Below, piece by piece: positions 1,179 to 41,572 of a DNA stretch of 64,000 nucleotides. Within the stretch, counting starts at the first letter, position 1; each line of letters begins with the position of its first letter. Under the pieces are notes generated by a model, which made no database searches, was not told the DNA's origin, and saw nothing but the letters and a program-made list of their open reading frames with translations. Source of the stretch: Desulfatibacillum sp. (GTDB taxonomy: Bacteria; Desulfobacterota; Desulfobacteria; Desulfobacterales; Desulfatibacillaceae); contig JAEINP010000001.1 in the NCBI GenBank assembly GCA_016342355.1, forward strand, positions 62,001 to 126,000, in the 5' to 3' direction. The position numbers and the translations under genes are program-made.

Positions 1179-2207
1179 ATGGATCTGAGAACACGAATAC
1201 AAAATCTGTTCAAGGAAGCAGAGATCTACCGTCAGCAAGGGCTCTATGGGGAAGCCAAAAAGAAATATCTCATCGTCGCTAATTTTCTCAAGAAAAACGA
1301 TAATATAACTAACCGTGATCAACTGCTGGACGCCATATCCAAAAAAATTTCCGCTATTGATAAAGATATCAGTGAACTGGACGATGTAGCCAGCCCCGAA
1401 GAAATGGCTTCTTCCAATGTCCAGGACCTTGTAAAAGGCTTTTTTTCCAGTTCTTCCTCCCAAAATAAAAACAAGGGCGCAGTGGCTTTTAAAGGAGCCG
1501 TAGCCCTGGCCCAATTGCGGCAGTTTGAAAGAGCCCTGGTAGAGTTCGATCGCTTGGTGCCAAACGAATCTGTTCGGGTGCCCGCCGCTAAAAACGTGCT
1601 TAAATGCTATATGGCCCTGGGCGCCCCGGATAAAGGCATCGCACAATATGACAGCTGGCTCCGGGACGACATGTTTACAGACGAACAAGTCGAATCCGTC
1701 CGGGTTTTCTTTGAAGACCTTCTGAAAAATAAAGGCCTCTCCGTCAACCTGGAACGAAGGCACGGGGTGGCTCCCATGGTTCCTTCAGCTCCCCAAAGCG
1801 CACCCAAACCCCCTCCCGTGGAAACCGAACCCATCTCGTTTTCGCCGGAAGACACATCGGCTATCATGGAAGCCGCCGAAGCTGCTGCCGAAGAAGCCAT
1901 GGACGAGGATCCCATCGAAATTTGTTCCCTGGAAATTACCTACGACGCTGGCCCGGAAAAAGGCCAGACTGTGGAACTGGAGGTGGATCAACAGATTGGA
2001 AACAAGCTCACCATGTTGATTCCGGGAAAAAACAAGGATTATGTGGACAACCTGGGCATCGGCCAAAGACTGAACGATCTCCAGTTCTTTTCCCACTTTA
2101 TCATGTTCCGGGGCGCCGGGGTGGTCCTGGCAAAAACCCTTGTCAGCTCCGGAGTTAACAAAGGGGATTATAGCCTTGTTATCCGCATGGAAACCCAGAC
2201 AAACTAA
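1179..2207 (+). CDS. TPR-like cytoplasmic protein of unknown function
   Basis: The protein has 342 aa and no signal peptide or membrane segment. Residues about 10-60 and 95-175 are helical and TPR-like (IYRQQGLYGEAKKKY; FKGAVALAQLRQFERALVEF). A Pro/Glu-rich linker (about 195-240, with EAAEAAAEEAMDEDP) leads to a C-terminal beta-rich domain of about 95 aa (from IEICSLEITYDAG) that I cannot assign; a PilZ-like fold is possible but the RxxxR signature is not seen. Its stop overlaps the start of the next gene by one base, so the two are translationally coupled. Spacing from the cyclase gene is 132 bp, so it may or may not share its transcript. The ATG at 1179 has only a weak purine-rich site (agagg) upstream. 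Confidence 0.75.
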   Translation: MDLRTRIQNLFKEAEIYRQQGLYGEAKKKYLIVANFLKKNDNITNRDQLLDAISKKISAIDKDISELDDVASPEEMASSNVQDLVKGFFSSSSSQNKNKGAVAFKGAVALAQLRQFERALVEFDRLVPNESVRVPAAKNVLKCYMALGAPDKGIAQYDSWLRDDMFTDEQVESVRVFFEDLLKNKGLSVNLERRHGVAPMVPSAPQSAPKPPPVETEPISFSPEDTSAIMEAAEAAAEEAMDEDPIEICSLEITYDAGPEKGQTVELEVDQQIGNKLTMLIPGKNKDYVDNLGIGQRLNDLQFFSHFIMFRGAGVVLAKTLVSSGVNKGDYSLVIRMETQTN

Positions 2208-2833
2208 TGTCCCTGATGCAATGGATAGAACAGAAAGAAAGCATATACGATTTTCCAGGATTTTTGTGGACCAGGGGTAAACCCTGGCGACAAATGATCC
2301 TTGGCCTGCTTTGCGGGATAAGCCTCTTCACCCTCATCACTTCCCTGTTTGTCAATCAACCAAACCCCAAAGAGTTCCTGTTGCTGTTTGTAAGGCCCGG
2401 GGCGCCCATTCTCCTATCTGTTCTCATGGCGCTGGGGGCCACGCTGTTGGTTACAGCCGCGTTCTGTTTGCTCCTGGCAGGCTTTTCCGGCCTGTTTTAT
2501 ACTCTGGTGGGCAATGCCCTTCACCTGCTATGGCCCTGGGGAGCTCACAGGTTCCGGGCTTTAGCCATGGCTTTTTTCTCTACCTGGGCACTGGCAGCCC
2601 TTTTTAATACCTTTTTGTTTGTCCTTTATCGAACCGACCTGGGAAGCCACCAGTTCGTGGTCATTTATGCGGGGCAAGGCCTGGAGTTTTTTTACGGTTT
2701 TTTAAAGGCGCCAGGTTTTTTTCTGTTGGTCCTGGGAGTTGCCTTTCCTGCGTGGGATTTCCACTGCATGCATAGGGATTCCCACAGCCGCGCCACTCAG
2801 GCTGCCCGGCTCTTCAATCATCCGGATTCTTGA
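2207..2833 (+). CDS. Integral membrane protein of unknown function
   Basis: This 208-aa protein starts at an ATG that overlaps the stop of the upstream TPR-like gene (TAATG), which indicates coupled translation and a probable joint function. Four or five hydrophobic segments are visible, around residues 30-48, 65-90, 92-112, 122-142 and 172-190. A short charged N-terminus (WIEQKESIYDF) and a His-rich C-terminal tail (DFHCMHRDSHSRA) follow. The layout recalls Yip1-type small membrane proteins, but I see no defining motif and make no functional call. It is not an obvious DctQ subunit even though a TRAP-type binding protein gene follows downstream. Confidence 0.7.
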   Translation: MSLMQWIEQKESIYDFPGFLWTRGKPWRQMILGLLCGISLFTLITSLFVNQPNPKEFLLLFVRPGAPILLSVLMALGATLLVTAAFCLLLAGFSGLFYTLVGNALHLLWPWGAHRFRALAMAFFSTWALAALFNTFLFVLYRTDLGSHQFVVIYAGQGLEFFYGFLKAPGFFLLVLGVAFPAWDFHCMHRDSHSRATQAARLFNHPDS

Positions 2834-13799: not shown

Positions 13800-15518
13800 A
13801 TGAAACACACCATGCGTTTTTCCCCGGCAAGTTGTTTTTTTCTTAACGCCCTTCCTGGCAGAAAATCTTTGTTTCTCCTGGCTTGCTTCCTTTGCGCCTT
13901 GCTTGCGGTCACGGGATGCCGCCACGCCACGCTGGCGCCTGCCAGTGAAAGTCCGGCCCCGGAGTCCGCATCTTCCGCCCTGGTGGTCAAAATCATTAAA
14001 CAAAGTCCCCTGTCCAGGATTTCCGCCAAACTGTCGGTGGACGGTAGAGAACTGGGAACCGTGGAGGCGGGGGAATCCAACGAAGACAATCCCGGGGCCA
14101 CCGGCAGTTGTCATTTGTTTTCGGCCCCTGCCCAAGCCTATAAGCTCACCATGGAGTTAAGCACCCAAAATCAGAATTCCGTGGCTCTCAAACATCAGCA
14201 CACCGTGGACCTGGACGGAGAGCCCGGCGCGACCGATTACGTGGTCATATCCCTTGGCGGACCCGGGAACGAAAGCACCACCAGGGTGGGCACATTCAAG
14301 ATTAAGCCTCCGGCTGCGGAAACCCTTGCCCAAAGCGCGGCAAAGGGCGGATGCCTGCCCTGGACGGATATCCGGGACCACGCTGAAAATTACGCAATCA
14401 GGGCCACTGTGGAAAACGAGGTCCTGGACAAGACCCTGGACAAGGCCAGGGCAGGAGACCCGGAAGCCCAACTTCAACTGGCCCGGATGTACCTCCAGGG
14501 CGACGGCGTGGAAAAGGACGGGCAAAAGGCTTTGGAATGGGCGACCAAGGCCGGAGAAGCCGGACACATTCCGGCGCAGATCCTATTGTCAGCCGGACAC
14601 CTGAAAGGGCTTTTTGGAGATACAGACAACCCCCAGGCATTTGCCTGGGCCTCCCGAGGTGCAGACCAGGGCGATGCCAAAGCCATGGCCCTGGTGGCAT
14701 CCTATTATAAAAACGGATTTGGCGTGCAAAAGGACCCTGAAAAAGCGTTTGAATGGTTTTTGAAGGCTGCGGAAAAAGGCCACATGGTCTCCATGATCGT
14801 GGCGGGAGAATCCTATTACAATGGCGTAGGCGTGGAGAAAAATCTGGAAGAGGCCTTTGCCTGGAGACTTAAGGCAGCCTACGGAGGATCTCCGGCCGCC
14901 GCCAACACCGTGGGGCAGATGTACTATCGGGGAGAAGGAGTGGCCCAAAATTATGAAAAGGCCTTTACCTGGCTCCAATGGGCCGCCGAACGAGGCAGCG
15001 GGAATGCCTGCGCCACCCTGGGCCTCATGTACTTCCAGGGCCAGGGCGCGGCCAAGGACCCTGCCAAGGCTATCGAATGGTTCACCAAAGGCGCCGCCGG
15101 GGGAAATCTCCTGTGCATGAGCAACCTGGGTAATTGTTACCTGGGAGGCGCCGGGGTGGACAAAGACCCGGACGCGGCCAAACAATGGCTGGCCAAGGCT
15201 GGCGCCAAAGGCTATGTGCCGGCCCTAAACAAGCTGGCCCTTCTTTTTCTTCAGGAAAAAGACTCGGCCCGGGCACAGCAGTGGGCCGCCCTGTCAGCCA
15301 AGGCCGGTAATCCCTCAGGCGTATATCTTCTGGGCTTGGCCCTTGCCCAGGCCGGGGATTTGGAAAAATCGCTTGAAGTGTTGGATGTGGCCTTAAAAGC
15401 AGGGCACCCCCAGGCCGCCGAGGCCATGGAAAAAATCCGCACATTGCAAGGCCAACCCGTCCCGGGAGATGACAGCCCGGAAATCGTACCGGCCGACCCG
15501 GCCTCCAGCGAGGAATAA
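13800..15518 (+). CDS. Sel1-repeat (TPR-like) lipoprotein
   Basis: From the ATG at 13800 the protein has 572 aa. An earlier in-frame ATG at 13779 is possible; neither has a clear ribosome-binding site. A basic N-terminus and hydrophobic stretch end in a lipobox-like LLAVTGC, indicating a lipoprotein. After a beta-rich N-terminal segment of about 170 aa (VVKIIKQSPLSRISAKLSVDG...), about eight Sel1 repeats follow (pattern A-xx-LG-xY--G-GV-KD--KA--W--KAA--G; for example ASYYKNGFGVQKDPEKAFEW and GQMYYRGEGVAQNYEKAFTW). Sel1 proteins scaffold protein-protein contacts, often in envelope or signalling complexes. The specific partner is unknown. A strong terminator follows at 15584, so it is likely monocistronic. 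Confidence 0.88.
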   Translation: MKHTMRFSPASCFFLNALPGRKSLFLLACFLCALLAVTGCRHATLAPASESPAPESASSALVVKIIKQSPLSRISAKLSVDGRELGTVEAGESNEDNPGATGSCHLFSAPAQAYKLTMELSTQNQNSVALKHQHTVDLDGEPGATDYVVISLGGPGNESTTRVGTFKIKPPAAETLAQSAAKGGCLPWTDIRDHAENYAIRATVENEVLDKTLDKARAGDPEAQLQLARMYLQGDGVEKDGQKALEWATKAGEAGHIPAQILLSAGHLKGLFGDTDNPQAFAWASRGADQGDAKAMALVASYYKNGFGVQKDPEKAFEWFLKAAEKGHMVSMIVAGESYYNGVGVEKNLEEAFAWRLKAAYGGSPAAANTVGQMYYRGEGVAQNYEKAFTWLQWAAERGSGNACATLGLMYFQGQGAAKDPAKAIEWFTKGAAGGNLLCMSNLGNCYLGGAGVDKDPDAAKQWLAKAGAKGYVPALNKLALLFLQEKDSARAQQWAALSAKAGNPSGVYLLGLALAQAGDLEKSLEVLDVALKAGHPQAAEAMEKIRTLQGQPVPGDDSPEIVPADPASSEE

Positions 15519-15583
15519 ACCGGCCCTTGTCATAAATAATATAAATTTCCCCACCTTTATTGGGGGATAGATAAGATTTTTTC

Positions 15584-15619
15584 AGGGTTTCCGCCCAACG
15601 GGTGGAAACCCTTTTTTTT
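15584..15619 (+). terminator. Rho-independent terminator after the Sel1 lipoprotein gene
   Basis: AGGGTTTCC and GGAAACCCT pair perfectly around an inner CCC/GGG extension, giving a stem of about 13 bp with a short loop. It is followed directly by a run of eight T. It separates the lipoprotein gene from the DUF11 operon. Confidence 0.9.
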
Positions 15620-16099
15620 GCGTCAATACTTCCATTGAGGCCAAAGTTTATGATTTTCTAAAAACTGAACAAAGATAAATTACATTTAAAGCAACTTCAT
15701 TTATGCAGTTCGGTATAATTTACCGATGTTCAAAAGATCGTCCTTTTTTTGGTATGTTTTTAATTTAATTAAAATCAGTGTGTTATCCATTAGGACCTCC
15801 TGGGCTATAATGCCTTACCTATTGTATAAAAAAAGTACATAGTTCTATATAATATCAAAAAACAAGTTATTTATTGGAGGAAATTACTCACGATACCCCA
15901 TAAAAAATGATTTGAGATGCATTTTTCATATTGGGCCTTTTTAAAATCCTGACCAATAGCACTATTCCTATGTTTTTTAGAAATAGTTTCTTCCGGCCTC
16001 CATATATTTAGACAAAAAATACTGTAAAAACAATTAGTAACATATTCTATCCTAAATTTTATTCCGTCCTGTTAAGTGGGAATAAATGACCGGCCTTTT

Positions 16100-16114
16100 T
16101 GATAATGAGTATCA
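16100..16114. promoter_or_regulatory. Fur-box-like operator
   Basis: TGATAATGAGTATCA matches the classical 7-1-7 Fur consensus (TGATAATnATTATCA) at 13 of 14 defined positions. The symmetry extends outward with T and A runs, giving a perfect TTTTTGATA/TATCAAAAA inverted repeat at 16096-16118. It ends eight bases before the -35 hexamer of the promoter for the giant surface-protein gene. A ferric-uptake-regulator family protein could bind here. Some Desulfobacterota Fur motifs differ from the enterobacterial one, so this is a candidate only. Confidence 0.55.
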
Positions 16115-16122
16115 AAAAAAAC

Positions 16123-16151
16123 TTGACACTACTTTTGACCTTAGTTTAAAT
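16123..16151 (+). promoter_or_regulatory. Sigma-70-type promoter for the DUF11 operon
   Basis: A perfect -35 TTGACA (16123-16128) is followed after 17 bases by TTAAAT (16146-16151), a four-of-six match to the -10 hexamer. Transcription would start near 16158, about 75 bases before the ATG of the first surface-protein gene. The Fur-box-like palindrome lies just upstream. Confidence 0.55.
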
Positions 16152-16232
16152 TTTCAATCTCGTGCGTGGCGGTCATTCTGTGCTAGTCATGCTCCTCTAT
16201 TGTTACTTATAGTTATTTCAGGCTAGAACACT

Positions 16233-19200
16233 ATGTTTCGCCACATTTTTGTGATATTATTCTTGGGGTGCACCCTCGCCGCAAGCGCCCAGGCCGGTCC
16301 TCTCACCATCACCCAGACCATCCCGGACGCCTTTATCAACGATTCCATCACAGGCTCCCAGGGCCAGACCTACCAGCTTGCCCTATCCAATGCCACGGCC
16401 CTTACGTCCACCAATATCACCGTCTCCGTGGACATACCCGTGGGCTTTTCCTATGTGAACGGCACCCTGACCAACAACCGGGGGCTCACACGCAGCGTCA
16501 CCCCTGGCGATCCTTTCACCATCGACTTTGTGGAGGGCCTGACCCTCAACCCGGGCGAAAGCATTGACATGACCTACAGGCTGGCGACGGACTGCAACGC
16601 CCTTCCCGGCCAGCAACTGATCTCGGCAACCGCCACCTATGACGAGCCCCAATCCCCGGACGCCAACTCCGACCTGGTTACCATCAAGTCCGGCCTCATC
16701 GAGGTGGACCTGATTCCGGTTTTGCCCAACCCCTTCAACGTGGAGGTGGGCGATACGGTCCAACTGACGGCCCGGATCACCAACGACGGCGAAGGCTCCC
16801 TGTTTAAAGTAGATTTTGCAGCCAATTGGGGTGCGGATTTTTCCAGCCCATCCCTGGTGGGCGGAACCCTGACGCCTACCCTTGCCGGAAACAGTTACAC
16901 AGTTACCACCGGAGAAATTCCAGCAGGCGAAAGCCGGGAGTTCACCTTTGAACTGGCGGTGGCTGGTTGCGATGACTTGTCCATCGACGTGGAGGCTGAA
17001 AATCCCTGCGACATAGGCACAACTTACACGGATGACAGTTCCCCCTTCCTTACCCTCAAGCAGCCTAACGTGACCATCGGCACGGCCGACGCCTCCCTGG
17101 ATTATTGCGGAACCGGGGACATGGTCCTGACCATTCAGAATCCGGACAACCCCGTGAACACCCGGGGAACCGCCTATAATTTTTCCATTTCCACCGCCCT
17201 TCCGGGTGACGTGAACGTTGACAGCGTTTCCGCAGGCTGGACACATAACGGCGCTGGCGTTTTTACCCTGGACAGCGGAACCATCGCCGTGGGCGATACG
17301 GAAACCCTGACCATCTCCCTGTCCGCAGATGATCCCTGCGCCGGGGCGTCGGGCACCCTGATTTTCTCCCCCGCGTACGCCAATGCTTGCGGCGACGCAT
17401 TCGCCCCGCCTGTTGTGATCGCCACATACGACAGCCAGACAGGCCCTACTCTGGACATTGACCAGTCTTTCGTAACAGAGGGAGGGGATCAGGAGCGTGT
17501 GTTCCTGGGCGAAAAAATCACCTTTACCATCACTCCGTCCCTGACCGAAGCGGACCGGTGGAAGGAGGGTGAAGATATTGTTGTCACGGACACCTTCCCG
17601 GCCACACTGACTAATCTTACGCAGATTAACTTTCCAATTGGCACAGTTGACATAGACCTTGTGGGAAATGCCATCACTTGGGAGCTTTCTCCGGCCCAGG
17701 CTGCCACGTCCCCCTTTTTAATTGTGGAAGCCACCACCACCACTGATCCCTGTTTAGCAGGCAACTATATTTCCAATACCGCCCAGATTCTCAACGCTCA
17801 AACCAAATGTCCCTGCCCGGAGTCCGCCAGCGCCACGGCGAGCGTGTACCTCCAAAGCAAGGAACCCCCGGCAGGAGTGGAACTGGACGAAACCAAGGAA
17901 ATTCTCAACACCCCGGCAGGCGGCAGCTTTAACGTATGCCCGTCTTCGGATGTGAATTACTCCGTAACTCTGAATTTTGACCCGCTCAGCGGCGGCGTAT
18001 GGACCGGCTCCTCCATGATAGACCGGCTCCAGGGAAGTCAGACCTATGTGCCTGTTTCCCTCACATACGACGCAGGAGGCGGGTTTGTGGCTGTGCCGCC
18101 GGGAAGCATCCTCTCGGTTTCACCCCTCACCGTGGACCTGGGTTTCCTCACCGCAGCCACTGGCGGTGATGCGGTAGCCAACAAAACTGTGGAATTCCGT
18201 TATTCCCTGCGGGTGAGCAACAGCTCCCTGGCCCCTTGCACTCCCACAGGCGCGTTTTTGTCCGAAACCGAAGTCTATATCGCCCAATCCACGGCTGGTT
18301 GTTCCGAGGTGGGCGGCAGCCGCTTTTTTCTGGGAGAAATCGTGCCTGTGTCCCGGGCCGCCATGGAACTGGGCGTGGACCTCAGAACCAACTCCATCTC
18401 CAAATCCCAGCCTTTGTCCGTGGCTGAAACTTTGCCCGTAGCTGTTTCGGTGAATAAACTCACCCCCTGGAACGCCAATAATACGGTCGTCACGGTAGAC
18501 ACCACCAATTACGAATACCTGGGCAATCCAACTTTCAGCGGTTTTGGCGGGGCAGCCAATTATCCGGCGGTGAGTGAATCGGGTTCTGATGTCATTTTTA
18601 CATTTCCCAATCCATTAGGCTCCGGCGAGTCGGGCATGATTTACTTTGACGCCGTCAAAACTTGCTCCGGCGATTACTCCATCGACGCCCAATTGGACTA
18701 TGACGACGACTGCGGACAATCCTGCTCCGACACGGCCAGCGACTCCCCCATCATTCAACTGGTGGGCGATCTTCGGGTGAACGCCACTCCCGCCCAGGTG
18801 CAGGCCAGTTCGGGAGAACTCTCCTGGACCTTTTACGTCACCAACAAAGGCTCGGGAACCGCCTACAATGTCCGGCTTGTCGAAGAACTAAACAAGATGT
18901 TCAATTTTGTGGACTCCACCATAGACGGAGCCCCGGATAACCCGGGCGTCAACCCTGCCGTCGCAGATGGAGGCGCCGCTTGGGATATTACATGGGAGTT
19001 GGGAGACCTGGCCCCCAATCAGGTCCGTCAAGTGCAAGTCACCGTGGAACTGACCGGCGCATCATGTAACTACACCAACTCCAGCATGGTCCGGGCAACC
19101 TACGGCTATACGGACAGCACCGCCGCATTCCAGGAATGCCAAGTGGCGGCGGCAAGCACAGTTCCTGTTTTCACCCAGCCGCCCTCGCTCATGACCCTGT

Positions 19201-22200
19201 CCAACTCGTCTGTTGGCGCAGCCATGTGCGGGACAGGCATCATCAATCTGACCCTGGTCAACAACGGACGCACCTACAACTACAACGTGGTGGCCACCCA
19301 AAACCTGGGAACCACCGGATTGGAATATGTCAATGGCACCGCTGCATTGCTGGTTAACGGAGTGCCCGGGGTCATCGGCGACCCTGTCATTATTGGCAAC
19401 GAATTCACCTGGTCAGGAGCGTCCAACCCAGGGGACACGGGCTACGTGGCCGTGTTGGAAGACATGAACATAGGCGACACCTACATCATTTCTTTCGAGG
19501 TCAATGTGGACGAGGATTTCAACTCCAGCCAGCTCATTGCAGCCACGGCCACCTGGGAAAAACCCTGCGAGCGCGGCGGCGTGGGAACCGGCGTGGCGGG
19601 CGGCGCTGGCTTTGACGTGCCCATTGACCAGCCGGAAATCACCCTCACAAAAACCGGCTGGAACCAAACAGCGGGACAAACCGAAGCCAATCAGGCCAAC
19701 ACCGTGTACGGCGGTCAGGGCGACACCATCATCTGGCGGGTGAGCATTGTCAATAACGGCCCCGAACCCGCTGAAAACGTGGAACTGCGGGATGTCATCG
19801 GAGGCAATTTCACCCTGACCCGATGGGACGATAACGCTACTTTTTCCAGCCCCAACGCACTGGCTGGGATAGACACCGGTTATATGTCCATCCCCGACAT
19901 ACCGGCGGGAAACACCATTACCTACTATTTTGAGGGAACTGTTCAGAACGCCTGCTCCAACCAGACAAACACAGCCTATGTGCAGTGGGGCTGCGGGAGC
20001 ACAGCCCTCACATCCCCGGACGACAACGAAGACCCGGCGTACCTAAGAACCGTACCTGTTTTGGGGAACTCGGCCAACATCACGCAATCCATTACCGGTT
20101 TGGGCGGGGTAGGCGCCCTGAGCACCAGCGGCAGGATAGTTCTTACTGTGACGAATGAAGGTGGTACGGCCCGGAACCTGGTTTTGACCGATACCCTGCC
20201 CGGTGGATTCAGCCTGGATACCTCCCTTAACGCGGTCTCCATCGGAGGGACCGGAAGCCTGACCCATTTTGTTCAAACGGGATCTGCAACCGCCCCCGTG
20301 TTTTCATTGTATGATAATGTCGGCGCCATTGGCAGTGTGGATGTCCAGGAAAACATCCTCAGGTACGGAGAAACCGTCACCCTGACCTTTGACATTGTCC
20401 AGACAGGGGCAATTGACAGCACTGAAAATCAGGACGACCGCCAGGAAACCACCGGCGATGGCCTGGATCCCGTTCCGCCTGCCACGAGCAACAATCAGGT
20501 CAGCCTGGCCTATGAAAACACCTGCGGGGCTGGAAGCACCGCCACCGACAACGTGAGCGTCAATCCACAAACGCCCGACCTGGACATAGATATCGACCCG
20601 GGCAATCCCATAGTCCGCACTGTGTCAGGCACTGGCGATACGGAGACCTTTTCCATCAGGGTAAACAATCGGGGGGATGCCAGGGCATACAACGGAACCT
20701 TGACCGTGGATGTGGGCAGCGGCTTTACCGTCACCAATAGCGGCGGCATGACGGATAACGGCGGCGGTAACTATACCCTGGCCCTGAACAACATTGCGGC
20801 GGGCGGAAACCAGACCGTCACCTTCCAACTCACCGTGGCCAATGAAACCGACCCATTGACCTTTCACGCCCAAGTGGAAGGCATGATCCAGGATGCATCT
20901 GGCGCGGACATCGACCTTTACTCTCTGGACACCATTCGCGCCAGGATCATCGGGTTCAGGATGGACAAGAGCTTGCTGTCCAACACGGAAGCGGACTCGG
21001 TTGATCCGGAAGTCCTTATCGGCGAGGATGTCACTTATCGCATCGAGGGAACCTGGTTTGGTATGGACGGCGCGGAAAATGTGACCGGCATCAGTGTTAC
21101 CGATACCATGGCCACAGGCACGGGCTACATGAGCTATGTGGTGAATCAAGCCTATAGCGGCCTTTCCAGCAGTTCGACCCCAATCGCCTATGGTACCGGG
21201 AGTGTTCTTTTTAACCTGAGTAACACCAATGCGTCCGGGACCTTTCAGGCGGACATCACGACCCGTGTGCTGAACCAGAACCAAAACGCGGAAACCGGCG
21301 CCAACGTGGACGGGACCGACCTGACCAACACGGCCACGGCGGCGTTCACCTATTTGGGCACTACGTACAATTCTTCCACCACCGGATTTCCAGCCCTGGT
21401 CGACCGCCAGGAAACCGTGACGGTCAGCACTCCCAGTGTCTCCATTACAAAGCAGGTGCGCAATGTCACCGAAGACTCCCCGGCTGGCGCAGGCAATTTC
21501 GCCAACAGTGTGAACGCCAAAGCAGGGGACACCCTGGAGTACCAGATCACCATCACCAACGCCAATGGAAGAGCGCCTGCCTATGATGTGGAAGTCACGG
21601 ACGCAGTAAACGCTAAGTTCCAGCTATTGGCCTTTACTGTGGATGGCATTGATAATGACGGGGACGGAGCCACTGACGGCGGAGATGTGGGAGAAAACAA
21701 TCTTGGCGGATACGGAGCGGCAATCAGTTTTGACGATACTCAAAACGCGGGCCTGGACAAGCTGGATCCGAACGCCAGTGTTACCTTTGGCTATCAAGTG
21801 TACGTAGGCATTACAGTTAATCCCAATGAAACCATTCAGAATACGGCTACTGTCACCTACGACACCCTGGACGAAGCCTCGGGCAGCCAGACGGTTGGTA
21901 GCGAAGTAGCCAGCGGAGAAGTGGCGGGCGCCAGGGAATACTCCGCCACGGCCAACGCGGATGCGGATGTGGACCCCGTGGACGTAACAGGCTCCAAGGC
22001 TATTATGGCGACCTCGTCAACCCCATTGGGCGGCGTGGCGCCCTTTGCCGGACCCCAAAACGCGGTAGTCGGAGAGGAAATTCAATATCAGTTGAAGTTT
22101 ACCGTACCTCCCTCCACCCTGGAAAACTGGGTGCTGGAAGACACTCTTCCCCTTGGTTTGGTTGCTATTGAAGGATCCACATTTAATTTGCCTGGGGGAT

Positions 22201-25200
22201 TTGTTCCTGGCGGAAACATCGCTCCCGCCATCACTACCAACGGTGGCGGCCAGTCAGTCATCACTTGGAATTTTGGAGCTTTCGGAGATCAAACCCTGGA
22301 TCCGGCGTCCGGTTCCCAGACCATTACGGTGACTTTTATCGCTCGTGTAACGAACGTGGCTGGCAATGTGGAAACCACCAGCCTGGACAACACAGACGCA
22401 GAGGTCAGGTACGAGTTGAATACCGTGCCTCAGACTGTGGAATTGGCGGACGTGGAAGTCATTGTTCGGGAGCCGGTGGTTACTATCACCAAAACAATCG
22501 CCCCCAAGGCCAATGTGGACGCGGGCGACCAACTGGTGGTCACCATCCAGGTGCGAAACACCAGCGGAACCGTGACCGCCCACAACGTGCGGGTAATTGA
22601 GGATTTTTCCGGCGAGGATTTCTCCTATGTGACTTTGAACGTGGGGGGAACCGTTCCGGACACCGTGGACGAAACCAACGCCGACGCCCCGTTCTTTGTC
22701 TACGATACCCTGACTCCGGGCCAGACCAAATCCTTCACCTATCCCATCACGGTGAACACCGAGGCCCAGCCCCTGGAAAACCTGGACAACACGGTCCACC
22801 TGACCTGGACCTCCCTGGCCGACAATACCGTGGCCCTGAACACCACCGGGGGAACCCCCGTCGGAGCCCTCCCCGGAACCATAGGCTCGGACGGTACAGC
22901 CTTTGGTATGCGCAATGGGGATGTACCAGGAGATGGCGGCCTGAACGACTACGAAGCCTCTGCCACGGACAACCTCACCCTGGGCGCCGTGACTGCCACC
23001 AAAGCCGACGAAGGCCTGGTTGGCGTTTTCCCAGCCAATGTTATAGGCGCACGGCGTTCCTTCTCCATCACCATTGACCTGCCCGAAGGCACAACAAACG
23101 ATCTGGTGGTTACGGACCAGCTTGACGCCGGTTCCGCGGGGCTGGTCCTGGAAAACAACGCCACCTACGATGTGAGCTTTACCTTCACGGATATAGCCAC
23201 AGTCAATGGAATCGATCCGGCCACCTACGTTGATAACGCCGCAGTGGAGGCCAATCTTGTCAACAACGGAACCCATCCCGTGGATGGAGCGACTGGAACC
23301 CTCACCTGGGATTTCGGAATAATCGTGACCGACGAGGAAGATGATCAGTCGGTCAATTCAGTCAGCCCCCAGATTATCATCGAGTATACGGCCCGCATTG
23401 ACAACGTGAACGATAACCAGGCGGGAACCGCCCACGAAAACCTGGGCGCGGTCACCTATGATCACGGCGAGACCGCGGCTACGGAAACCATCAACGCCGG
23501 GGCCGTCAGTTTTACCGTGCTGGAACCCGCGCTCACCGTGACCAAGCTGGGCAGGAACGTCACCCGAGGCAACGCGGACTTTTCGGCCTTCACCGCGCCG
23601 GACGCAGGAGATGTCCTGGAATTCCAGGTCACCATCACCAACGGCAACACCAACGCCTATACAGCGTACGATATCAATATTGAAGACACCCTGCCCGAAG
23701 GCCTGGCTATCACAGCCGACGCGCCCGTGGGAGATATTGTGACCGACCCCGATACTTCGGGAACCGGCGGGGCCGGGGACGCCCAGACCCTGGTTTGGGG
23801 CCGCACCCAGGGCGCACCCCTGGTCATGAATCTGGCCGCCAACACCTCCATGGTCTTCACCTATCAGGTGGACGTGCTTGGCGCCGTGGAACCGGGCCAG
23901 GAATTTCTCAATACGGTGGATGTGGACTGGACCTCCCTGTCCGGCGCCAACGCCGACGAACGGGACGGCGCAGGCGGCGTGGACGACTACACCGACTCAG
24001 ACACCTCCACAGTCACAAACAGGGACGACACCTCCTTTGCCAAAGCCCGCACCTCCGACACCTACGGACCCGGAGACAACGACGTGCGCATCGGCGATTT
24101 GGCGACCTTCACCCTCACTATAGGGTTGACCGAAGGCCTGACAAGCAATCTGGTGGTGGAAGACACCCTGCCCAACGGCTTGGCTTTCTATGATACGATC
24201 TCTTTGAATGGCGACGCAGCCGCCCCATACTCCAGCGCCAACAAGTTCACCTACTCCGATATTCCCGCAGGCGATACGCCTTTGGACGGAGAAACCGGAA
24301 CTGTCACCTGGACCATGGGAGATGTCACCAACGCCAATTTCGACTCAAATACGCCCGAGGTGGATACCTTCACCATCGTGTACCGCGCCAGAATAGGTGA
24401 CGCAGCGGGCTTTGGGTTGACACCCTCCACCCAGACCGTGGCCAACGCCGCCACCCTGGATTATGTGGAGTACGATAATACCCCGCAACAGTTGAGTGAT
24501 TCCGAGAATATCGACGTGGTCCAGCCTGTTCTGGAGTCCTCCAAGGGCCTGGCTGTCGGTCAGACCGCCCTGGTCAATCCTCTGGGAACGGTGGATTATG
24601 AAATCACCATCACCAACACGGGTGATGCCCCGGCATACAATACCCTGGTGGCCGACACCCTTCCCGCGGGCATGCGCATGAATGCGCCTGTCCTGGCGTC
24701 CGCCACTTTGGGTGGAGCGCCTGTTGTTCTGGCTCCTCTCAGTTTCGCGGCCGCCACAGGCACTGTTTCCTGGACCCTGACCGACGCACAGCCCATTTTG
24801 CCCGGCGAAAGCCTGGTCATAGAATACACGGCCACCGTGGACGACCGCGTAAAGGCAGGCACGGAACTCACCAACCAGGCCGCCGCGATTTCCTATTTTT
24901 CCAAAGAAAGCGCGGACGCCGACGAGCGCAGGCAATACCCTGCCACCACCAAGTCCTCCACCACGGTTACGGTTTTCGGCATGCTGTTTACCCCTAATCA
25001 TGAGCAAACCACCCAGGCTGGAACAAGCATTCATTATGTCCATCAGGTGGATGTTTACGCTGCGGGAACCACCGCCGATCTGTCCTTCAGCGCGGCTTCC
25101 TCCCAAGGCCTGGTTTGGACCATCTATTACGACACCAACGGCTCCGGCGAACTGGACGCGGGAGACGCCCGGTACACCAACGGCACGTCCTTCCCCACCG

Positions 25201-25736
25201 GGGATTACACTTTTTTCATGCGGACCGTGGTGCCCGGCCAGGTGACCGACGGCTGGAATGACACCACCATCTTTACCGCAAGCCTTGTGTCAGGCGCTTC
25301 CACCCAAAACCGCACGGTTACGGACATCACCCGGGTGGTGCTTACGGGCGGCGAAGGCGCCGGAGAAGTGACCGCTTCCAAGGAAGCCGCCATCGACACC
25401 AACTGCGACGGCAACCTGGGGGACGAACTGCTCATCGACTCCACCTTTGAAATCATCAAGGACGCCGAGCCCGGAGAATGCGCCGTCTACCGCATAGAAT
25501 TCACCAACCAGGGCACCGGAAGTATATCCAATGTAAAAGTCGTGGACGACGTGGTGGACTACTCCACTTACGTGGGCGCCTCGGCGGAATTCGAGACCAC
25601 ACCGGCAGGCCTTACTGAAGGCGTCATCACTGAACCCGCAGACGGCGCCAAAGGTACAGTCACCTGGACCTATGGCGGAACCCTGGAACCCGGATTAACC
25701 GGCAGCGTGAAATACACTGTAAAAATAGACCAATAG
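16233..25736 (+). CDS. Giant secreted DUF11-repeat surface protein (3167 aa)
   Basis: The ATG at 16233 opens a Sec signal peptide (MFRHIFVILFLGCTLAASAQA) cut before GPLTI; the ribosome-binding site is weak. The rest is a chain of beta-sandwich repeats of the DUF11 / conserved-repeat (B_ant_repeat) type, recognised by N-x-G-x-x-x-A-x-x-V-x-x-x-D-x-L-P motifs (for example ITNTGDAPAYNTLVADTLPA and VTNEGGTARNLVLTDTLPGG) and regular T-x-T and GD/NPGE turns. Many Asp/Asn loops may bind Ca. There is no LPXTG or transmembrane anchor. The last 250 or so residues (from about nt 24976) match a two-part C-terminal module also found in the two mid-size proteins downstream (DTNCDG...PGECAVYRIEFTN). Likely an extracellular fibre or adhesin. 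First gene of a five-gene unit; 15 bp to the next. Confidence 0.88.
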   Translation: MFRHIFVILFLGCTLAASAQAGPLTITQTIPDAFINDSITGSQGQTYQLALSNATALTSTNITVSVDIPVGFSYVNGTLTNNRGLTRSVTPGDPFTIDFVEGLTLNPGESIDMTYRLATDCNALPGQQLISATATYDEPQSPDANSDLVTIKSGLIEVDLIPVLPNPFNVEVGDTVQLTARITNDGEGSLFKVDFAANWGADFSSPSLVGGTLTPTLAGNSYTVTTGEIPAGESREFTFELAVAGCDDLSIDVEAENPCDIGTTYTDDSSPFLTLKQPNVTIGTADASLDYCGTGDMVLTIQNPDNPVNTRGTAYNFSISTALPGDVNVDSVSAGWTHNGAGVFTLDSGTIAVGDTETLTISLSADDPCAGASGTLIFSPAYANACGDAFAPPVVIATYDSQTGPTLDIDQSFVTEGGDQERVFLGEKITFTITPSLTEADRWKEGEDIVVTDTFPATLTNLTQINFPIGTVDIDLVGNAITWELSPAQAATSPFLIVEATTTTDPCLAGNYISNTAQILNAQTKCPCPESASATASVYLQSKEPPAGVELDETKEILNTPAGGSFNVCPSSDVNYSVTLNFDPLSGGVWTGSSMIDRLQGSQTYVPVSLTYDAGGGFVAVPPGSILSVSPLTVDLGFLTAATGGDAVANKTVEFRYSLRVSNSSLAPCTPTGAFLSETEVYIAQSTAGCSEVGGSRFFLGEIVPVSRAAMELGVDLRTNSISKSQPLSVAETLPVAVSVNKLTPWNANNTVVTVDTTNYEYLGNPTFSGFGGAANYPAVSESGSDVIFTFPNPLGSGESGMIYFDAVKTCSGDYSIDAQLDYDDDCGQSCSDTASDSPIIQLVGDLRVNATPAQVQASSGELSWTFYVTNKGSGTAYNVRLVEELNKMFNFVDSTIDGAPDNPGVNPAVADGGAAWDITWELGDLAPNQVRQVQVTVELTGASCNYTNSSMVRATYGYTDSTAAFQECQVAAASTVPVFTQPPSLMTLSNSSVGAAMCGTGIINLTLVNNGRTYNYNVVATQNLGTTGLEYVNGTAALLVNGVPGVIGDPVIIGNEFTWSGASNPGDTGYVAVLEDMNIGDTYIISFEVNVDEDFNSSQLIAATATWEKPCERGGVGTGVAGGAGFDVPIDQPEITLTKTGWNQTAGQTEANQANTVYGGQGDTIIWRVSIVNNGPEPAENVELRDVIGGNFTLTRWDDNATFSSPNALAGIDTGYMSIPDIPAGNTITYYFEGTVQNACSNQTNTAYVQWGCGSTALTSPDDNEDPAYLRTVPVLGNSANITQSITGLGGVGALSTSGRIVLTVTNEGGTARNLVLTDTLPGGFSLDTSLNAVSIGGTGSLTHFVQTGSATAPVFSLYDNVGAIGSVDVQENILRYGETVTLTFDIVQTGAIDSTENQDDRQETTGDGLDPVPPATSNNQVSLAYENTCGAGSTATDNVSVNPQTPDLDIDIDPGNPIVRTVSGTGDTETFSIRVNNRGDARAYNGTLTVDVGSGFTVTNSGGMTDNGGGNYTLALNNIAAGGNQTVTFQLTVANETDPLTFHAQVEGMIQDASGADIDLYSLDTIRARIIGFRMDKSLLSNTEADSVDPEVLIGEDVTYRIEGTWFGMDGAENVTGISVTDTMATGTGYMSYVVNQAYSGLSSSSTPIAYGTGSVLFNLSNTNASGTFQADITTRVLNQNQNAETGANVDGTDLTNTATAAFTYLGTTYNSSTTGFPALVDRQETVTVSTPSVSITKQVRNVTEDSPAGAGNFANSVNAKAGDTLEYQITITNANGRAPAYDVEVTDAVNAKFQLLAFTVDGIDNDGDGATDGGDVGENNLGGYGAAISFDDTQNAGLDKLDPNASVTFGYQVYVGITVNPNETIQNTATVTYDTLDEASGSQTVGSEVASGEVAGAREYSATANADADVDPVDVTGSKAIMATSSTPLGGVAPFAGPQNAVVGEEIQYQLKFTVPPSTLENWVLEDTLPLGLVAIEGSTFNLPGGFVPGGNIAPAITTNGGGQSVITWNFGAFGDQTLDPASGSQTITVTFIARVTNVAGNVETTSLDNTDAEVRYELNTVPQTVELADVEVIVREPVVTITKTIAPKANVDAGDQLVVTIQVRNTSGTVTAHNVRVIEDFSGEDFSYVTLNVGGTVPDTVDETNADAPFFVYDTLTPGQTKSFTYPITVNTEAQPLENLDNTVHLTWTSLADNTVALNTTGGTPVGALPGTIGSDGTAFGMRNGDVPGDGGLNDYEASATDNLTLGAVTATKADEGLVGVFPANVIGARRSFSITIDLPEGTTNDLVVTDQLDAGSAGLVLENNATYDVSFTFTDIATVNGIDPATYVDNAAVEANLVNNGTHPVDGATGTLTWDFGIIVTDEEDDQSVNSVSPQIIIEYTARIDNVNDNQAGTAHENLGAVTYDHGETAATETINAGAVSFTVLEPALTVTKLGRNVTRGNADFSAFTAPDAGDVLEFQVTITNGNTNAYTAYDINIEDTLPEGLAITADAPVGDIVTDPDTSGTGGAGDAQTLVWGRTQGAPLVMNLAANTSMVFTYQVDVLGAVEPGQEFLNTVDVDWTSLSGANADERDGAGGVDDYTDSDTSTVTNRDDTSFAKARTSDTYGPGDNDVRIGDLATFTLTIGLTEGLTSNLVVEDTLPNGLAFYDTISLNGDAAAPYSSANKFTYSDIPAGDTPLDGETGTVTWTMGDVTNANFDSNTPEVDTFTIVYRARIGDAAGFGLTPSTQTVANAATLDYVEYDNTPQQLSDSENIDVVQPVLESSKGLAVGQTALVNPLGTVDYEITITNTGDAPAYNTLVADTLPAGMRMNAPVLASATLGGAPVVLAPLSFAAATGTVSWTLTDAQPILPGESLVIEYTATVDDRVKAGTELTNQAAAISYFSKESADADERRQYPATTKSSTTVTVFGMLFTPNHEQTTQAGTSIHYVHQVDVYAAGTTADLSFSAASSQGLVWTIYYDTNGSGELDAGDARYTNGTSFPTGDYTFFMRTVVPGQVTDGWNDTTIFTASLVSGASTQNRTVTDITRVVLTGGEGAGEVTASKEAAIDTNCDGNLGDELLIDSTFEIIKDAEPGECAVYRIEFTNQGTGSISNVKVVDDVVDYSTYVGASAEFETTPAGLTEGVITEPADGAKGTVTWTYGGTLEPGLTGSVKYTVKIDQ

Positions 25737-25751
25737 AGGCAACGAAAGTCC

Positions 25752-28583
25752 ATGAAGCAAAAACCAATCCGGATGCGTCGAATCAAACAAGCATGCCTCT
25801 ATGCCTCGGCCTTGGTGTTTTTGGTTGTCATGGGCCTGGGCGTCGCCCTTTCCGCCATGCCGGATGCAGGTACTAAAATCGTCAATCAGGGTACGGTGTT
25901 CTTCACCGATGAAAATGGCGAAGACCGCCAAACCACCACCAACCTGGTCACTCTCACAATCCGGCAGGTCTATGCCGCCAGCCTGGAGGGCGACAGATCC
26001 GCCTATGCCTCCCCGGACGGAGAAGCGGTCATGTTTCATACCCTCACCAATGAGGGCAATGGTCAGGATACCTACTGTGTAACCGTGGCGGAAGCTGCGG
26101 GAGATTCCGGGAATTTCGAACGCCTCCAGGTTGTCTGGGACGAAAACCAAAACGGCGCAGTGGACTCGGGCGAGGAAGTCCTCCATCTTTCCGGTCAGGC
26201 AGGTTACGGAATCCTGACCCTGGAACGGGACGCCACCGCCAGCCTCATCGTGGTGGGCAAGGTTCCCTTTGGGGCTTTGGACACTCAGACCTATGGGGCA
26301 GTCCTCACGGTCCGTGCCCAGGAAGGAACCGGCGCCTGCCAGAACGGATTGGTCACCGATACGGGCGCCAACGCCGACGCCGCGGACGACACCAACCAGG
26401 ATACGGTCAACATAACTAACGACGGAGTCCTGGCGATCACCAAAACATCCGTGTACCAGGAAAACGCAGGCGGTACGGATGACGACACCATTCTCTATAC
26501 TGTCCGTATTGAAAATCAGGGTGCAAGTGACGCCAGAAACATTGTGGTCATCGATGATCTTCCCTTGGGCGCCAGTTATCAAGACACATCCCTGGCGTTT
26601 GATTTCCCCAAATGGGTTGGAACCGGGGCCGACGGCCAAGTGGGAGAGGCGCCCACCCACGACACAGCCATTCCCGGAACCATATCCGGCGAGGTTGACA
26701 TCCTGGCAGCGGGCGATTTTGTGAGTTTCAGCTACGTGGTGGAACTGGATAATGACCTGGATGGCGGCGCTGTCATTGAAAATTTTGCCGCCTGTCAGGG
26801 CGACCTGGACGACGACAACCTCACCACCGAACCTGAAGTGGAATCCAACACCACCCGGGATGTTTTCCCCAAAATTTTCAGCGTGACAATAGCCGATACC
26901 GGCACAGGCGCCCTTGCCGGGGTGAATGACGGCGGAGACGACGATGCAGCCAATGATAGCCAGTTGGTGGATGAAGCAGGCCAGGGGCAATCCGTCCTGT
27001 TTACCAATATAGTCACCAATCTGGGCAATAGCGAAGACAGTTTTAACCTGGCGGTCACTGCCGAGAATTTTCCCCCGGGAACCACCTTTGTGTTCTACAA
27101 TGCATCGGGCACGGTCCGGTTGCTTGATACCAACGGGGACGGCGCAATAGACACCGGTCCCATGGCCAAAGGCGCTATTCTCAATATCATGCTTAAAGCG
27201 GTTCTGCCGTCAGGCGTTTTTGGCGGCGGGGCATACACAGCCACGGTTACCGCTACATCAGCCCTCGACCCCTCCGGCATTCCGGCGGCAGACACGGTGA
27301 CCGAAACCCTTACCACCATAGTGGCCCATATCGTGGACTTGGCCAACAGCAACCCGGCCCCCGGTTTGAATGACGGAGGCGTTGCCAATGCCGACACGCC
27401 TCCGGCGGTGGTCAATTCCCTCGCCGCCGTTCCGGGCCAGACAGTCATCTTTACTCTTTATGCCGCCAATGAAGGCAGTTTTCAGGATGATTACGAACTT
27501 TCCGCCTGGGCCAACATGGCTGGCACAGTGGCCCTGCCTGCGGGTATCCAAGTGGAATTCACCCTGCCTGCCGGGGAAACAATAACCCACACGGGTCCTG
27601 TGGACCCGGGCCAGATTTTTACCTGTTACGCCAGGGTTACCTCGAATCCGGAGATGTCCACGGGCGCAGTCACCTTGTTTTTTATGGTCAAATCCCCTGT
27701 TACCCTGGCTCAGGATGTCAAGGCGGATCAACTGGTGGTGGCTACCGATGAAAGCTTGGCGCTCAGTCCTAACCAAACAGCGCCCATCTATCCCGGTTCG
27801 ATTGTTCACTATGTGCATCTTTTGCAAAACACCGGCAATACCCGGGAAGATGTAATCGTTTTTGTGGAAAGCCAGTCGCACCTCCGTAACGAGTTGGAAT
27901 TCCCCACCGCCTTTGCAGGAACCGAAGTGTCGGGCTGGACCAAGGTGGAATACCTCAATATTGGCGACAATGTGGTGGTCTACGATCCTGATACGGCGGC
28001 CTGGAAAACCGTGACCCTGGTGGACGACGGCTCCGGCGGCCTGGCCATACCCATGGACCCGGGCGATTTCACCAATATCCGGGTGCGGGTGCAGGCCACA
28101 TTGAACGAAGTGGAATTCACGCGGGATATGCTGGTTCTCAAGGCTCAGGTGGCTGTGGGTTCCGCATCTGCCAGCGTGTTGGATATCACCACGGTCAACG
28201 GAACCCAACTGACCATCACCAAAACCGGAGCGGTGGACACCGATTGCGACGGAACCCCCGAAACCCCCTTTGGTACAGGTATCCTGGAAGCCAAGCCAGG
28301 CGAATGCGTCATATGGAAGCTGGAAGTGATCAACTACGGCGTGGAACCCATCTGTGAAGTGACCGTCCACGATGCGGCCGTGGCTTTTACGGTCCTGGAC
28401 GGATTACCCGCTATTATTTCCGAACCAGCTCCAGGCGGCACGGGAAGTTGTGTGGTTACCGGAGAGGAATTTGACTGTACCGTAGGAAATCCCTACGACA
28501 TTGATAACAGCGGCTTGGACGATTCTTTTTGTCTTCAGCCCGGAGAACAAGCGGAAATACGTTTCCGCGTTAGGGTGGAATAG
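25752..28583 (+). CDS. Secreted DUF11-domain surface protein (943 aa)
   Basis: A basic N-terminus and one hydrophobic stretch (CLYASALVFLVVMGLGVAL) form a signal peptide or uncleaved anchor. An N-terminal module (AGTKIVNQGTVFFTDENGE...VYAASLEGDRSAY) is shared with the 999-aa and 1994-aa proteins of the operon. DUF11 domains follow (ITKTSVYQENAGGTDDDTIL; NIVVIDDLPLGASY), with Ca-loop-like strings such as WDENQNGAVDSGEE and LDTNGDGAIDTG. The C-terminal two-part module (NQTAPIYPGSIVHYVHLLQNTGN, then VDTDCDG...KPGECVIWKLEV) is shared with the 3167-aa and 999-aa proteins. The start is 15 bp after the giant gene; an agagg site lies somewhat far upstream, and the ATG at 25773 is an alternative. Confidence 0.87.
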   Translation: MKQKPIRMRRIKQACLYASALVFLVVMGLGVALSAMPDAGTKIVNQGTVFFTDENGEDRQTTTNLVTLTIRQVYAASLEGDRSAYASPDGEAVMFHTLTNEGNGQDTYCVTVAEAAGDSGNFERLQVVWDENQNGAVDSGEEVLHLSGQAGYGILTLERDATASLIVVGKVPFGALDTQTYGAVLTVRAQEGTGACQNGLVTDTGANADAADDTNQDTVNITNDGVLAITKTSVYQENAGGTDDDTILYTVRIENQGASDARNIVVIDDLPLGASYQDTSLAFDFPKWVGTGADGQVGEAPTHDTAIPGTISGEVDILAAGDFVSFSYVVELDNDLDGGAVIENFAACQGDLDDDNLTTEPEVESNTTRDVFPKIFSVTIADTGTGALAGVNDGGDDDAANDSQLVDEAGQGQSVLFTNIVTNLGNSEDSFNLAVTAENFPPGTTFVFYNASGTVRLLDTNGDGAIDTGPMAKGAILNIMLKAVLPSGVFGGGAYTATVTATSALDPSGIPAADTVTETLTTIVAHIVDLANSNPAPGLNDGGVANADTPPAVVNSLAAVPGQTVIFTLYAANEGSFQDDYELSAWANMAGTVALPAGIQVEFTLPAGETITHTGPVDPGQIFTCYARVTSNPEMSTGAVTLFFMVKSPVTLAQDVKADQLVVATDESLALSPNQTAPIYPGSIVHYVHLLQNTGNTREDVIVFVESQSHLRNELEFPTAFAGTEVSGWTKVEYLNIGDNVVVYDPDTAAWKTVTLVDDGSGGLAIPMDPGDFTNIRVRVQATLNEVEFTRDMLVLKAQVAVGSASASVLDITTVNGTQLTITKTGAVDTDCDGTPETPFGTGILEAKPGECVIWKLEVINYGVEPICEVTVHDAAVAFTVLDGLPAIISEPAPGGTGSCVVTGEEFDCTVGNPYDIDNSGLDDSFCLQPGEQAEIRFRVRVE

Positions 28584-28637
28584 CACATGCCGGAGCCGCA
28601 GGCCCGGATCTGCCCACACCTTGTCAGGAGTTTAGCC

Positions 28638-29132
28638 ATGCCTCAGCAAATCAAAAAAAGAACCTACGCCCTGGTGTTGTTGGCGTTTTTCGCCGTATGC
28701 GCCGCTGTCTATGCCGCTCCCCTGGAAAGCCTCATGGAGACGTTGCTGGTGAAGACGGATAAAGCGGGCCAGGAAATTCTGGAAAAAACCGAGTCCGCCT
28801 TGCCCGGGGATATCGTGGAATACAGGACGACTTATAACAACGCAGGGAACTCGACCCTCACCGGTTTGGTGGTTGAAGTCCCCATTCCTGCAAACACACA
28901 ATACCTGTCGGGCTCTGCTGCAAGCAAAGTGCCTCATACGTTTATGGTCAGCATAGACGGGGGCGCCACCTGGGACCACGAGCCGGTCCGGCGCATGCGC
29001 AAGGGATCCGATGGTGTGGAACAGGAAGTAATTGTCGGCACTGAGGAATATACCCATCTCCGGTGGATACCTAAAAAGGCCATCCAACCCGGAGAAGTCC
29101 AGGTGTACCGGTGCCGTGTGAAAATATCGTGA
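28638..29132 (+). CDS. Small secreted single-domain DUF11-like protein (164 aa)
   Basis: The ATG at 28638 follows a caggag ribosome-binding site and gives a clean signal peptide (MPQQIKKRTYALVLLAFFAV...VYAAPLE), so it is preferred over the open frame from 28587. The mature protein is a single DUF11-type beta-sandwich (ALPGDIVEYRTTYNNAGN, VVEVPIPANTQYLSGSA, AIQPGEVQVYRCRVKIS). Its size suggests a minor subunit, cap or adaptor of a structure built from the larger repeat proteins; that is inference. It lies 54 bp after the 943-aa gene, and a hairpin follows at 29154. Confidence 0.82.
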   Translation: MPQQIKKRTYALVLLAFFAVCAAVYAAPLESLMETLLVKTDKAGQEILEKTESALPGDIVEYRTTYNNAGNSTLTGLVVEVPIPANTQYLSGSAASKVPHTFMVSIDGGATWDHEPVRRMRKGSDGVEQEVIVGTEEYTHLRWIPKKAIQPGEVQVYRCRVKIS

Positions 29133-32217: not shown

Positions 32218-32305
32218 GGACCGGGATGCACAGGTTTTTGTGACATCCTCCTCCTTATGAACGGGAGTGTGTTTTGGGTTTATCAAGGCGCAAACTAAGG
32301 GCAAC

Positions 32306-32329
32306 CCGGTCAGCCAACAGGCTGGCCGG
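32306..32329 (+). other. GC-rich hairpin between the 999-aa and 1994-aa genes
   Basis: CCGGTCAGCC and GGCTGGCCGG form a 10-bp stem (one G-U pair) with an AACA loop. No T run follows, so it is not a terminator. It lies in the 176-bp leader of the barrel-protein gene and may stabilise or process the mRNA. Confidence 0.4.
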
Positions 32330-32393
32330 GCCCCAAACGATTTTCAAGCACCACGCGGGAGCTTTATTCCGCAAAAATAAGGGTATAGAGTTA

Positions 32394-41013: not shown

Positions 41014-41301
41014 TTACTGCACGATTCCCAGGACATCGTCTTCGCGCATGATCAGGAATTCTTCGCCCTCGATTTTCACCTCGGTCCCGGAATACTTCCC
41101 AAAAAGGACACGGTCTCCCACCTTGACTTCCAAAGCGGTTTTGGTTCCGTCGTCATTGGTTTTGCCAGGGCCTACGGCCACGATCTCGCCTTCAGCAGGC
41201 TTTTCTTTAGCCGTGTCAGGGATGATGATTCCGCCTTTGGTTGTGGTTTCTTCTGCCAGACGCTTCACCAGAATGCGATCTGCTAGTGGTTGAAGTTTCA
41301 T
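41014..41301 (-). CDS. groES: Co-chaperonin GroES (10 kDa)
   Basis: From the ATG at 41301, preceded by a strong aaaggag site, the protein has 95 aa ([18 protein letters not shown]), the normal GroES length. The upstream extension in the longer open frame is not translated in any known GroES. The mobile loop ([18 protein letters not shown]) and the beta-barrel core ([24 protein letters not shown]) are intact. First gene of groES-groEL. I see no CIRCE element (TTAGCACTC-type) and no convincing sigma-32 promoter upstream, so the mode of heat-shock control is unclear. Confidence 0.99.
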
Positions 41302-41572
41302 AAGCTGTCTCTCCTTTTTTTCTTTAATGTAGTGGCTCCCACACAAGTCCTATCAGCCAGCGGCCCATGTGAAACGCAAAATGCGAAAAAAGATATCCAA
41401 ATTTTGTTGGAAAAGTTAATCACCCATAGCAATTTGTAAAGAGGCTGAATTCGTTTTTTTTTGATTTTGCCGATCTCAACCTCGGGCTCAAATCAGGCCC
41501 TTTTCACCACACAGAACCATCAAACCCGGGAAAGAGCTTTCCCCGGGTCTCCCGGTCCCTCAGTTTGGCTTC
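41302..41572 (-). other. groES upstream region
   Basis: This region should hold the groESL promoter. A weak minus-strand candidate is TTTACA with TAACTT after 16 bases, around 41415-41442. No CIRCE palindrome is visible. A near-perfect hairpin without a T run (ACCCGG-GAAAG / CTTTC-CCGGGT) lies at 41523-41549, between the groES promoter area and the FmdB-type terminator. Confidence 0.4.

Follow-up and report, generated by a model that had tools for sequence, protein, structure and literature searches.

A conserved Fur-type operator at a DUF11 operon of Desulfatibacillum is a candidate target of a PerR-like peroxide sensor

In a 64,000-nucleotide stretch of Desulfatibacillum sp. DNA (the window), a Fur-type operator stands beside the promoter-like sequence of a presumed operon of DUF11 proteins, and both are conserved in Desulfatibacillum alkenivorans. 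We favour, with moderate confidence, the reading that a PerR-type, peroxide-responsive repressor of the Fur family would bind this box and hold the operon down, given the genes at which the box recurs and the residues carried by the regulators. The original prediction was one of iron control through Fur. Its operator part stands; specific iron control is not supported, since boxes of this type are found at peroxide-defence genes, none with two or fewer mismatches is found at feo, and the feo-linked Fur protein L003 lacks the expected reading residues.

A Fur-type palindrome beside a promoter-like sequence

The candidate operator TGATAATGAGTATCA (16100–16114, + strand) agrees with the 7-1-7 consensus TGATAATNATTATCA at 13 of 14 positions, as predicted, the sole mismatch being a G for T at 16109. 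Judged by its letters, it would be an operator of the Fur-superfamily type. The box lies within a larger inverted repeat, TTTTTGATA-ATGAG-TATCAAAAA (16096–16118, no strand assigned), whose 9-bp arms (16096–16104 and 16110–16118) are perfectly complementary around the ATGAG centre and give a 23-bp palindrome. Eight nucleotides 3' of the box there is a −35-like TTGACA (16123–16128, +), a hexamer that the D. alkenivorans ortholog has too; the larger palindrome and the perfect TTGACA had likewise been called correctly. A putative −10 region at 16146–16152 (+) offers either TTAAAT with a 17-nt spacer or TAAATT with an 18-nt one. A promoter scan gives TTGACA-18-TAAATT a score of 10 out of 12, promoter-like sites being no commoner in the whole region than in shuffles (3 found, 2.7 expected).

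The near-consensus palindrome exceeds chance expectation. No other site in the window has one mismatch or none, and those with up to three number 8 against 1.7 expected from shuffles. For the 714-nt, 32% GC intergenic region before ORF A, the first gene of the presumed operon, an order-1 model puts the expected number of sites with no more than one mismatch at 0.0008 (22 in 20 Mb of simulated sequence). The whole genome (5.26 Mb, 142 contigs) has three sites that deviate by no more than one base; with up to three mismatches allowed there are 289, as against 68 for the reversed control pattern and 119 for an order-1 model of the window's composition.

Conservation in D. alkenivorans and beyond

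One close ortholog of ORF A was found, in D. alkenivorans DSM 16219, with 73–75% identity. The lack of a conserved site upstream of orthologs had been named as grounds for dropping the prediction; a box, CGATAATGATTATCA, does precede the D. alkenivorans gene, 9 nt 5' of TTGACA and with one mismatch to the consensus, at a position other than that in the window. The outer arms of the palindrome are not kept there; the Fur-type core is. Over the stretch that runs from the palindrome to the start codon, the two species have the same base at 89 of 136 aligned positions (65%; 20 base shuffles gave a mean of 45% and a maximum of 51%), whereas the 577 nt that open the 714-nt intergenic region are near background, at 253 of 539 (47%; mean 43% and maximum 47%, equal to the observed value, in 20 shuffles). 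Box, −35 and leader survive in an intergenic region whose sequence has for the most part drifted to near-background similarity, and the spacer TGACCTTAGTTTA before the −10-like region is conserved as well.

Downstream of the promoter-like sequence, a leader block of the form GCGTGGCGGTC..TCTGTGCT..TCATGCTCC (16164–16195, +) is also conserved in the ortholog and could constitute a second regulatory layer. A short hairpin with GCRUG/CAUGC pairing is possible in both species; its folding z-score is −1.45, with 14 of 200 shuffles folding as well, and the z-scores of the whole leader and of its ortholog are 0.00 and +1.73. A lax Rfam search of 15500–16400 returned six matches, none at the threshold of its family, and on this basis the leader was not taken to contain a riboswitch or any other known RNA. 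A short upstream reading frame, considered by eye, was also rejected: it has no ribosome-binding site and few synonymous changes.

These observations bear on a third kind of explanation, in which an unrelated regulator, a DNA-structural feature or chance accounts for the palindrome and the Fur-consensus match is a coincidence. The perfect TGATA-N5-TATCA palindrome with A/T arms at the operon's box would suit such an explanation, and the conserved leader block and spacer suggest other elements at this promoter. We nevertheless hold it to be quite improbable, given an expected frequency of 0.0008 in the intergenic region, the retention in D. alkenivorans of the Fur-type core but not of the outer arms, and the presence of the same core at peroxide-defence genes of both species.

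ORF A itself is rare. Its first 800 residues have matches in 3 of 59 genomes (its own, D. alkenivorans and, weakly, G005), and it occurs in 2 of the 291 genomes of the order, its own included, so the conservation evidence amounts to one species pair. With the whole of ORF A, a first scan of named genomes gave no match and a second gave D. alkenivorans only. The ORF A-led operon (16233–38378) appears to be genus-restricted. The DUF11-related genes of G005 and G008 have no box with two or fewer mismatches in the upstream sequence examined, G005 showing one three-mismatch site at −293. In G006, which belongs to another genus, the sole site with at most one mismatch (1174–1188 of L118/L152) is followed about 610 nt downstream by a DUF11-like gene, the first piece of which falls just below the Pfam cut-off. 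This is a hint only, because the contig of the sister genome G003 ends at this locus and G005 and G008 are without such a box in the sequence examined.

The DUF11 operon

The genes behind the promoter all lie on the + strand. ORF A (16233–25736) encodes 3167 aa with DUF11 repeats and has a start that looks signal-peptide-like by eye. It is followed by ORF B (25752–28583; 943 aa, DUF11), ORF C (28587–29132; 181 aa, with a DUF11-type repeat above the NCBIfam cut-off and below the Pfam one), ORF D (29218–32217; 999 aa, DUF11/DUF7619) and ORF E (32274–38378; 2034 aa, SdrD_B-like plus DUF11). D. alkenivorans has ORF A to ORF E in the same sequence, the ORF E ortholog being covered only in part as the fetched stretch ends. 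We presume that these five DUF11-type genes, reaching to about 38.4 kb, form one operon and are co-transcribed. DUF11 is named among the stalk domains of fibrillar adhesins in the part of PMC9210967 that was available, and the operon may therefore build surface fibres. An apparent literature match linking DUF11 with a Fur box was discarded, the excerpted passage being about DUF1178 rather than DUF11. Convergent with the end of the operon there is a gene at 41014–41346 (−) for what is, by eye, a GroES-like protein.

Other genes carrying the box

Allowing two mismatches, the window genome has 35 sites (3 with one mismatch, 32 with two) and D. alkenivorans has 32, against 7 for the control. We listed as targets all ORFs of at least 60 aa within 400 nt on either side of each such site, which gave 34 site–gene rows for the window genome and 30 for D. 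alkenivorans. Orthologous targets common to both species are msrAB (75% identity), an SprA-related gene (58%), the DUF11 operon (75%) and the rubrerythrin locus, as against about 0.2 shared targets by our estimate of chance, made with some 5000 genes. The rubrerythrin locus was matched through its divergent neighbour (80%), because the ORF picker had missed the D. alkenivorans rubrerythrin; the two rubrerythrins are orthologs with 90% identity, and the box that both species have in this intergenic region can be aligned. A match of rubrerythrin to a paralog (36%) and weak matches among signalling proteins were left out of the shared set. All three window-genome sites with at most one mismatch belong to that set, at msrAB, the SprA-related gene and the DUF11 operon.

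The motif is therefore found at peroxide-defence genes, msrAB and rubrerythrin, in both species. In the window genome a further box with two or fewer mismatches stands 11 nt before perR-katG, where the D. alkenivorans counterpart is degenerate (4 mismatches); in D. alkenivorans a box within the same limit precedes a thiol peroxidase gene. For the majority of the 35 sites no connection with peroxide defence is apparent, and many lie within ORFs. With promoters judged by eye, the rubrerythrin box overlaps the −35 and the msrAB box falls between the likely −35 and −10, both of which would be repressor positions.

The SprA-related gene (572–1360 (−) of L005 and 1652–2518 (+) of L064) is preceded in both species by a conserved box of the TGATAATA.ATATCA type, 137–141 nt upstream. 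It is an unexpected member of the set and not a known peroxide gene.

Fur-family regulators

The window genome has three Fur-family genes. L002 is directly upstream of katG and L001 lies elsewhere; L003 encodes a Fur-FeoA fusion and is followed by a small feoA-like gene and feoB. For both L001 and L002 the best solved match is 2fe3, "Peroxide operon regulator", which we take to be B. subtilis PerR. By hand count on the 2fe3 alignments, both keep the metal-site residues aligned with His37, Asp85, His91, His93 and Asp104 of PerR. Both have Arg where PerR has Asn61, and the boxes have Fur-type rather than B. subtilis PerR-type ends; L001 and L002 would therefore be PerR-like but not canonical PerR. 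Two publications bear on these positions, each in the part available to us: in B. subtilis, Asn61 versus Arg61 selects the PerR box versus the Fur box (PMC8638851), and Asp104 confers peroxide sensitivity (PMC8638851, with PMC4866751 in agreement). Because L001 and L002 pair Asp104 with Arg61, we would predict a peroxide sensor that reads a Fur-like box. In L003, by comparison, the sensor position is occupied by Glu and VRET replaces VYRT in the reading helix, so that the usual Tyr-Arg reading residues are missing; the orthologs of L003 likewise have no TVYR pattern. Taken together, the residues of L001 and L002 and the VRET of L003 mean that the candidates for reading a Fur-type box look like peroxide sensors.

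L002-type regulators were found in five of nine genomes of the family. These five have 12 sites with no more than one mismatch and the other four have 1, a tally that is suggestive only, because the genomes differ in size, completeness and composition and some of the sites lie within ORFs. A Fur-family protein of G002 with 21% identity was not counted as L002 type.

The iron reading

The iron reading holds that L003, the Fur-FeoA fusion, would sit on the box when iron is replete and keep the operon repressed. It can draw on the near-consensus match to the E. coli Fur box and on the existence of a feo-linked Fur with a Fur-type Glu. We consider it unlikely, since no box with two or fewer mismatches was found at the feo loci of either genome, fur-feoAB and the other feoB loci included, and L003 does not carry the Tyr-Arg pair; the motif is thus missing from the iron-uptake genes covered, those of feo, and the genome's iron-type Fur is without the expected Fur-box-reading helix. 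The ideas of mineral contact and iron acquisition gained no support. Boxes with three mismatches do precede D. alkenivorans feoB ORFs, one at 458 nt and one at about 2.6 kb.

The published delta-proteobacterial Fur box also differs. In the portion of PMC545781 at hand it is given as WTGAAAATNATTTTCAW, at feoAB and fur; according to the same portion, a search of the delta-proteobacteria studied with the E. coli Fur profile brought up no sites, and PerR sites differ by lineage. A scan with a Fur motif from Desulfobacterota had been proposed as a check alongside the original prediction; WTGAAAATNATTTTCAW with at most one mismatch occurs 4 times in the window genome and 7 times in D. alkenivorans, never at feo and always inside mechanical ORFs. 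The contrast with the delta-proteobacterial box is weakened by its absence from feo at this level, and to that extent the iron reading gains. The second feoB of the window genome has two delta-Fur-like sites with three mismatches in its vicinity. A neighbour of that feoB (L159, 1735–2238 (−)) resembles, by eye, a DtxR/MntR-type regulator, and iron or manganese control may therefore use another family.

Proposed mechanism

A motif alone cannot tell Fur from PerR, and iron is used by both. On the PerR-type reading, the box would most likely be read by L002, encoded beside katG, or possibly by its paralog L001. Fur/PerR-type footprints usually exceed 15 bp, and a metal-bound dimer covering the box would therefore reach the adjacent −35 and could repress the DUF11 surface-protein operon. 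Peroxide or oxygen would oxidise the sensor and release it from the box, and the operon would then be induced along with katG, rubrerythrin and msrAB.

The sign of control could be the opposite. Because the box is upstream of the −35 and not over the promoter, activation is conceivable: a PerR-type or other Fur-family protein might act as an activator from about −51, counted from the putative start site, or as a dual regulator. In both species the box stops short of the −35, by 8 nt in the window genome and 9 nt in D. alkenivorans, unlike the rubrerythrin and msrAB boxes, which overlap the promoter. We regard activation as rather improbable, as a footprint of more than 15 bp would reach the −35 and PerR and Fur usually act as repressors.

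Comparison with known systems

The box shares its 13 of 14 positions, 7-1-7 spacing and palindromic form with the E. coli-type Fur box TGATAATNATTATCA, but the companion sites common to both species include peroxide-defence genes and no feo, and its likely reader is a PerR-type paralog. With the B. subtilis PerR box, given as TTATAATNATTATAA in the available part of PMC545781, it has in common the 7-1-7 layout and the ATAAT core, and the target classes (katG, rubrerythrin, peroxide defence) are those of B. subtilis PerR. The outer bases here are TGA/TCA as in Fur boxes, which fits an Arg rather than an Asn at position 61 of the reader. Table 7 of PMC545781, in the excerpt used, lists a PerR site for another sulfate reducer, Desulfotalea psychrophila, as GTTAATGATAATCATTAct, with a similar GATAATCAT-type core; that site is itself a prediction, and its target is roo. 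The delta-proteobacterial Fur box from the same excerpted source is a palindrome that belongs to this family and has an identical centre, but with a GAAAAT half-site in place of GATAAT.

Should the PerR-type reading hold, its outcome would be remodelling of the cell surface on exposure to oxygen or peroxide, which we put forward tentatively. Oxidative stress would then switch a very large system of surface proteins in an anaerobic sulfate reducer, which would suggest that they serve in aggregation, shielding or attachment at oxic–anoxic boundaries rather than in contact with iron or minerals. Because Arg61 has the Fur form, an E. coli-type Fur box in Desulfatibacillum may be read by peroxide sensors, and caution is due with TGATAATNATTATCA in Desulfobacterota, not every instance of which need be an iron-Fur box.

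A second conserved motif, AATAGGAAT..., is present at the perR-katG promoter, together with ATTCCTAT, and at the promoter of the L001-type regulator itself; these promoters are upstream of L002 1863 (−), L109 1438 (+), L001 1875 (−) and L103 1875 (−). It resembles the Desulfovibrio PerR sites, AATAGGAATCGTTCCTGTT, published in the part of PMC545781 consulted. Given its presence at the perR-katG and L001 promoters, L001 may read something other than the Fur-type box.
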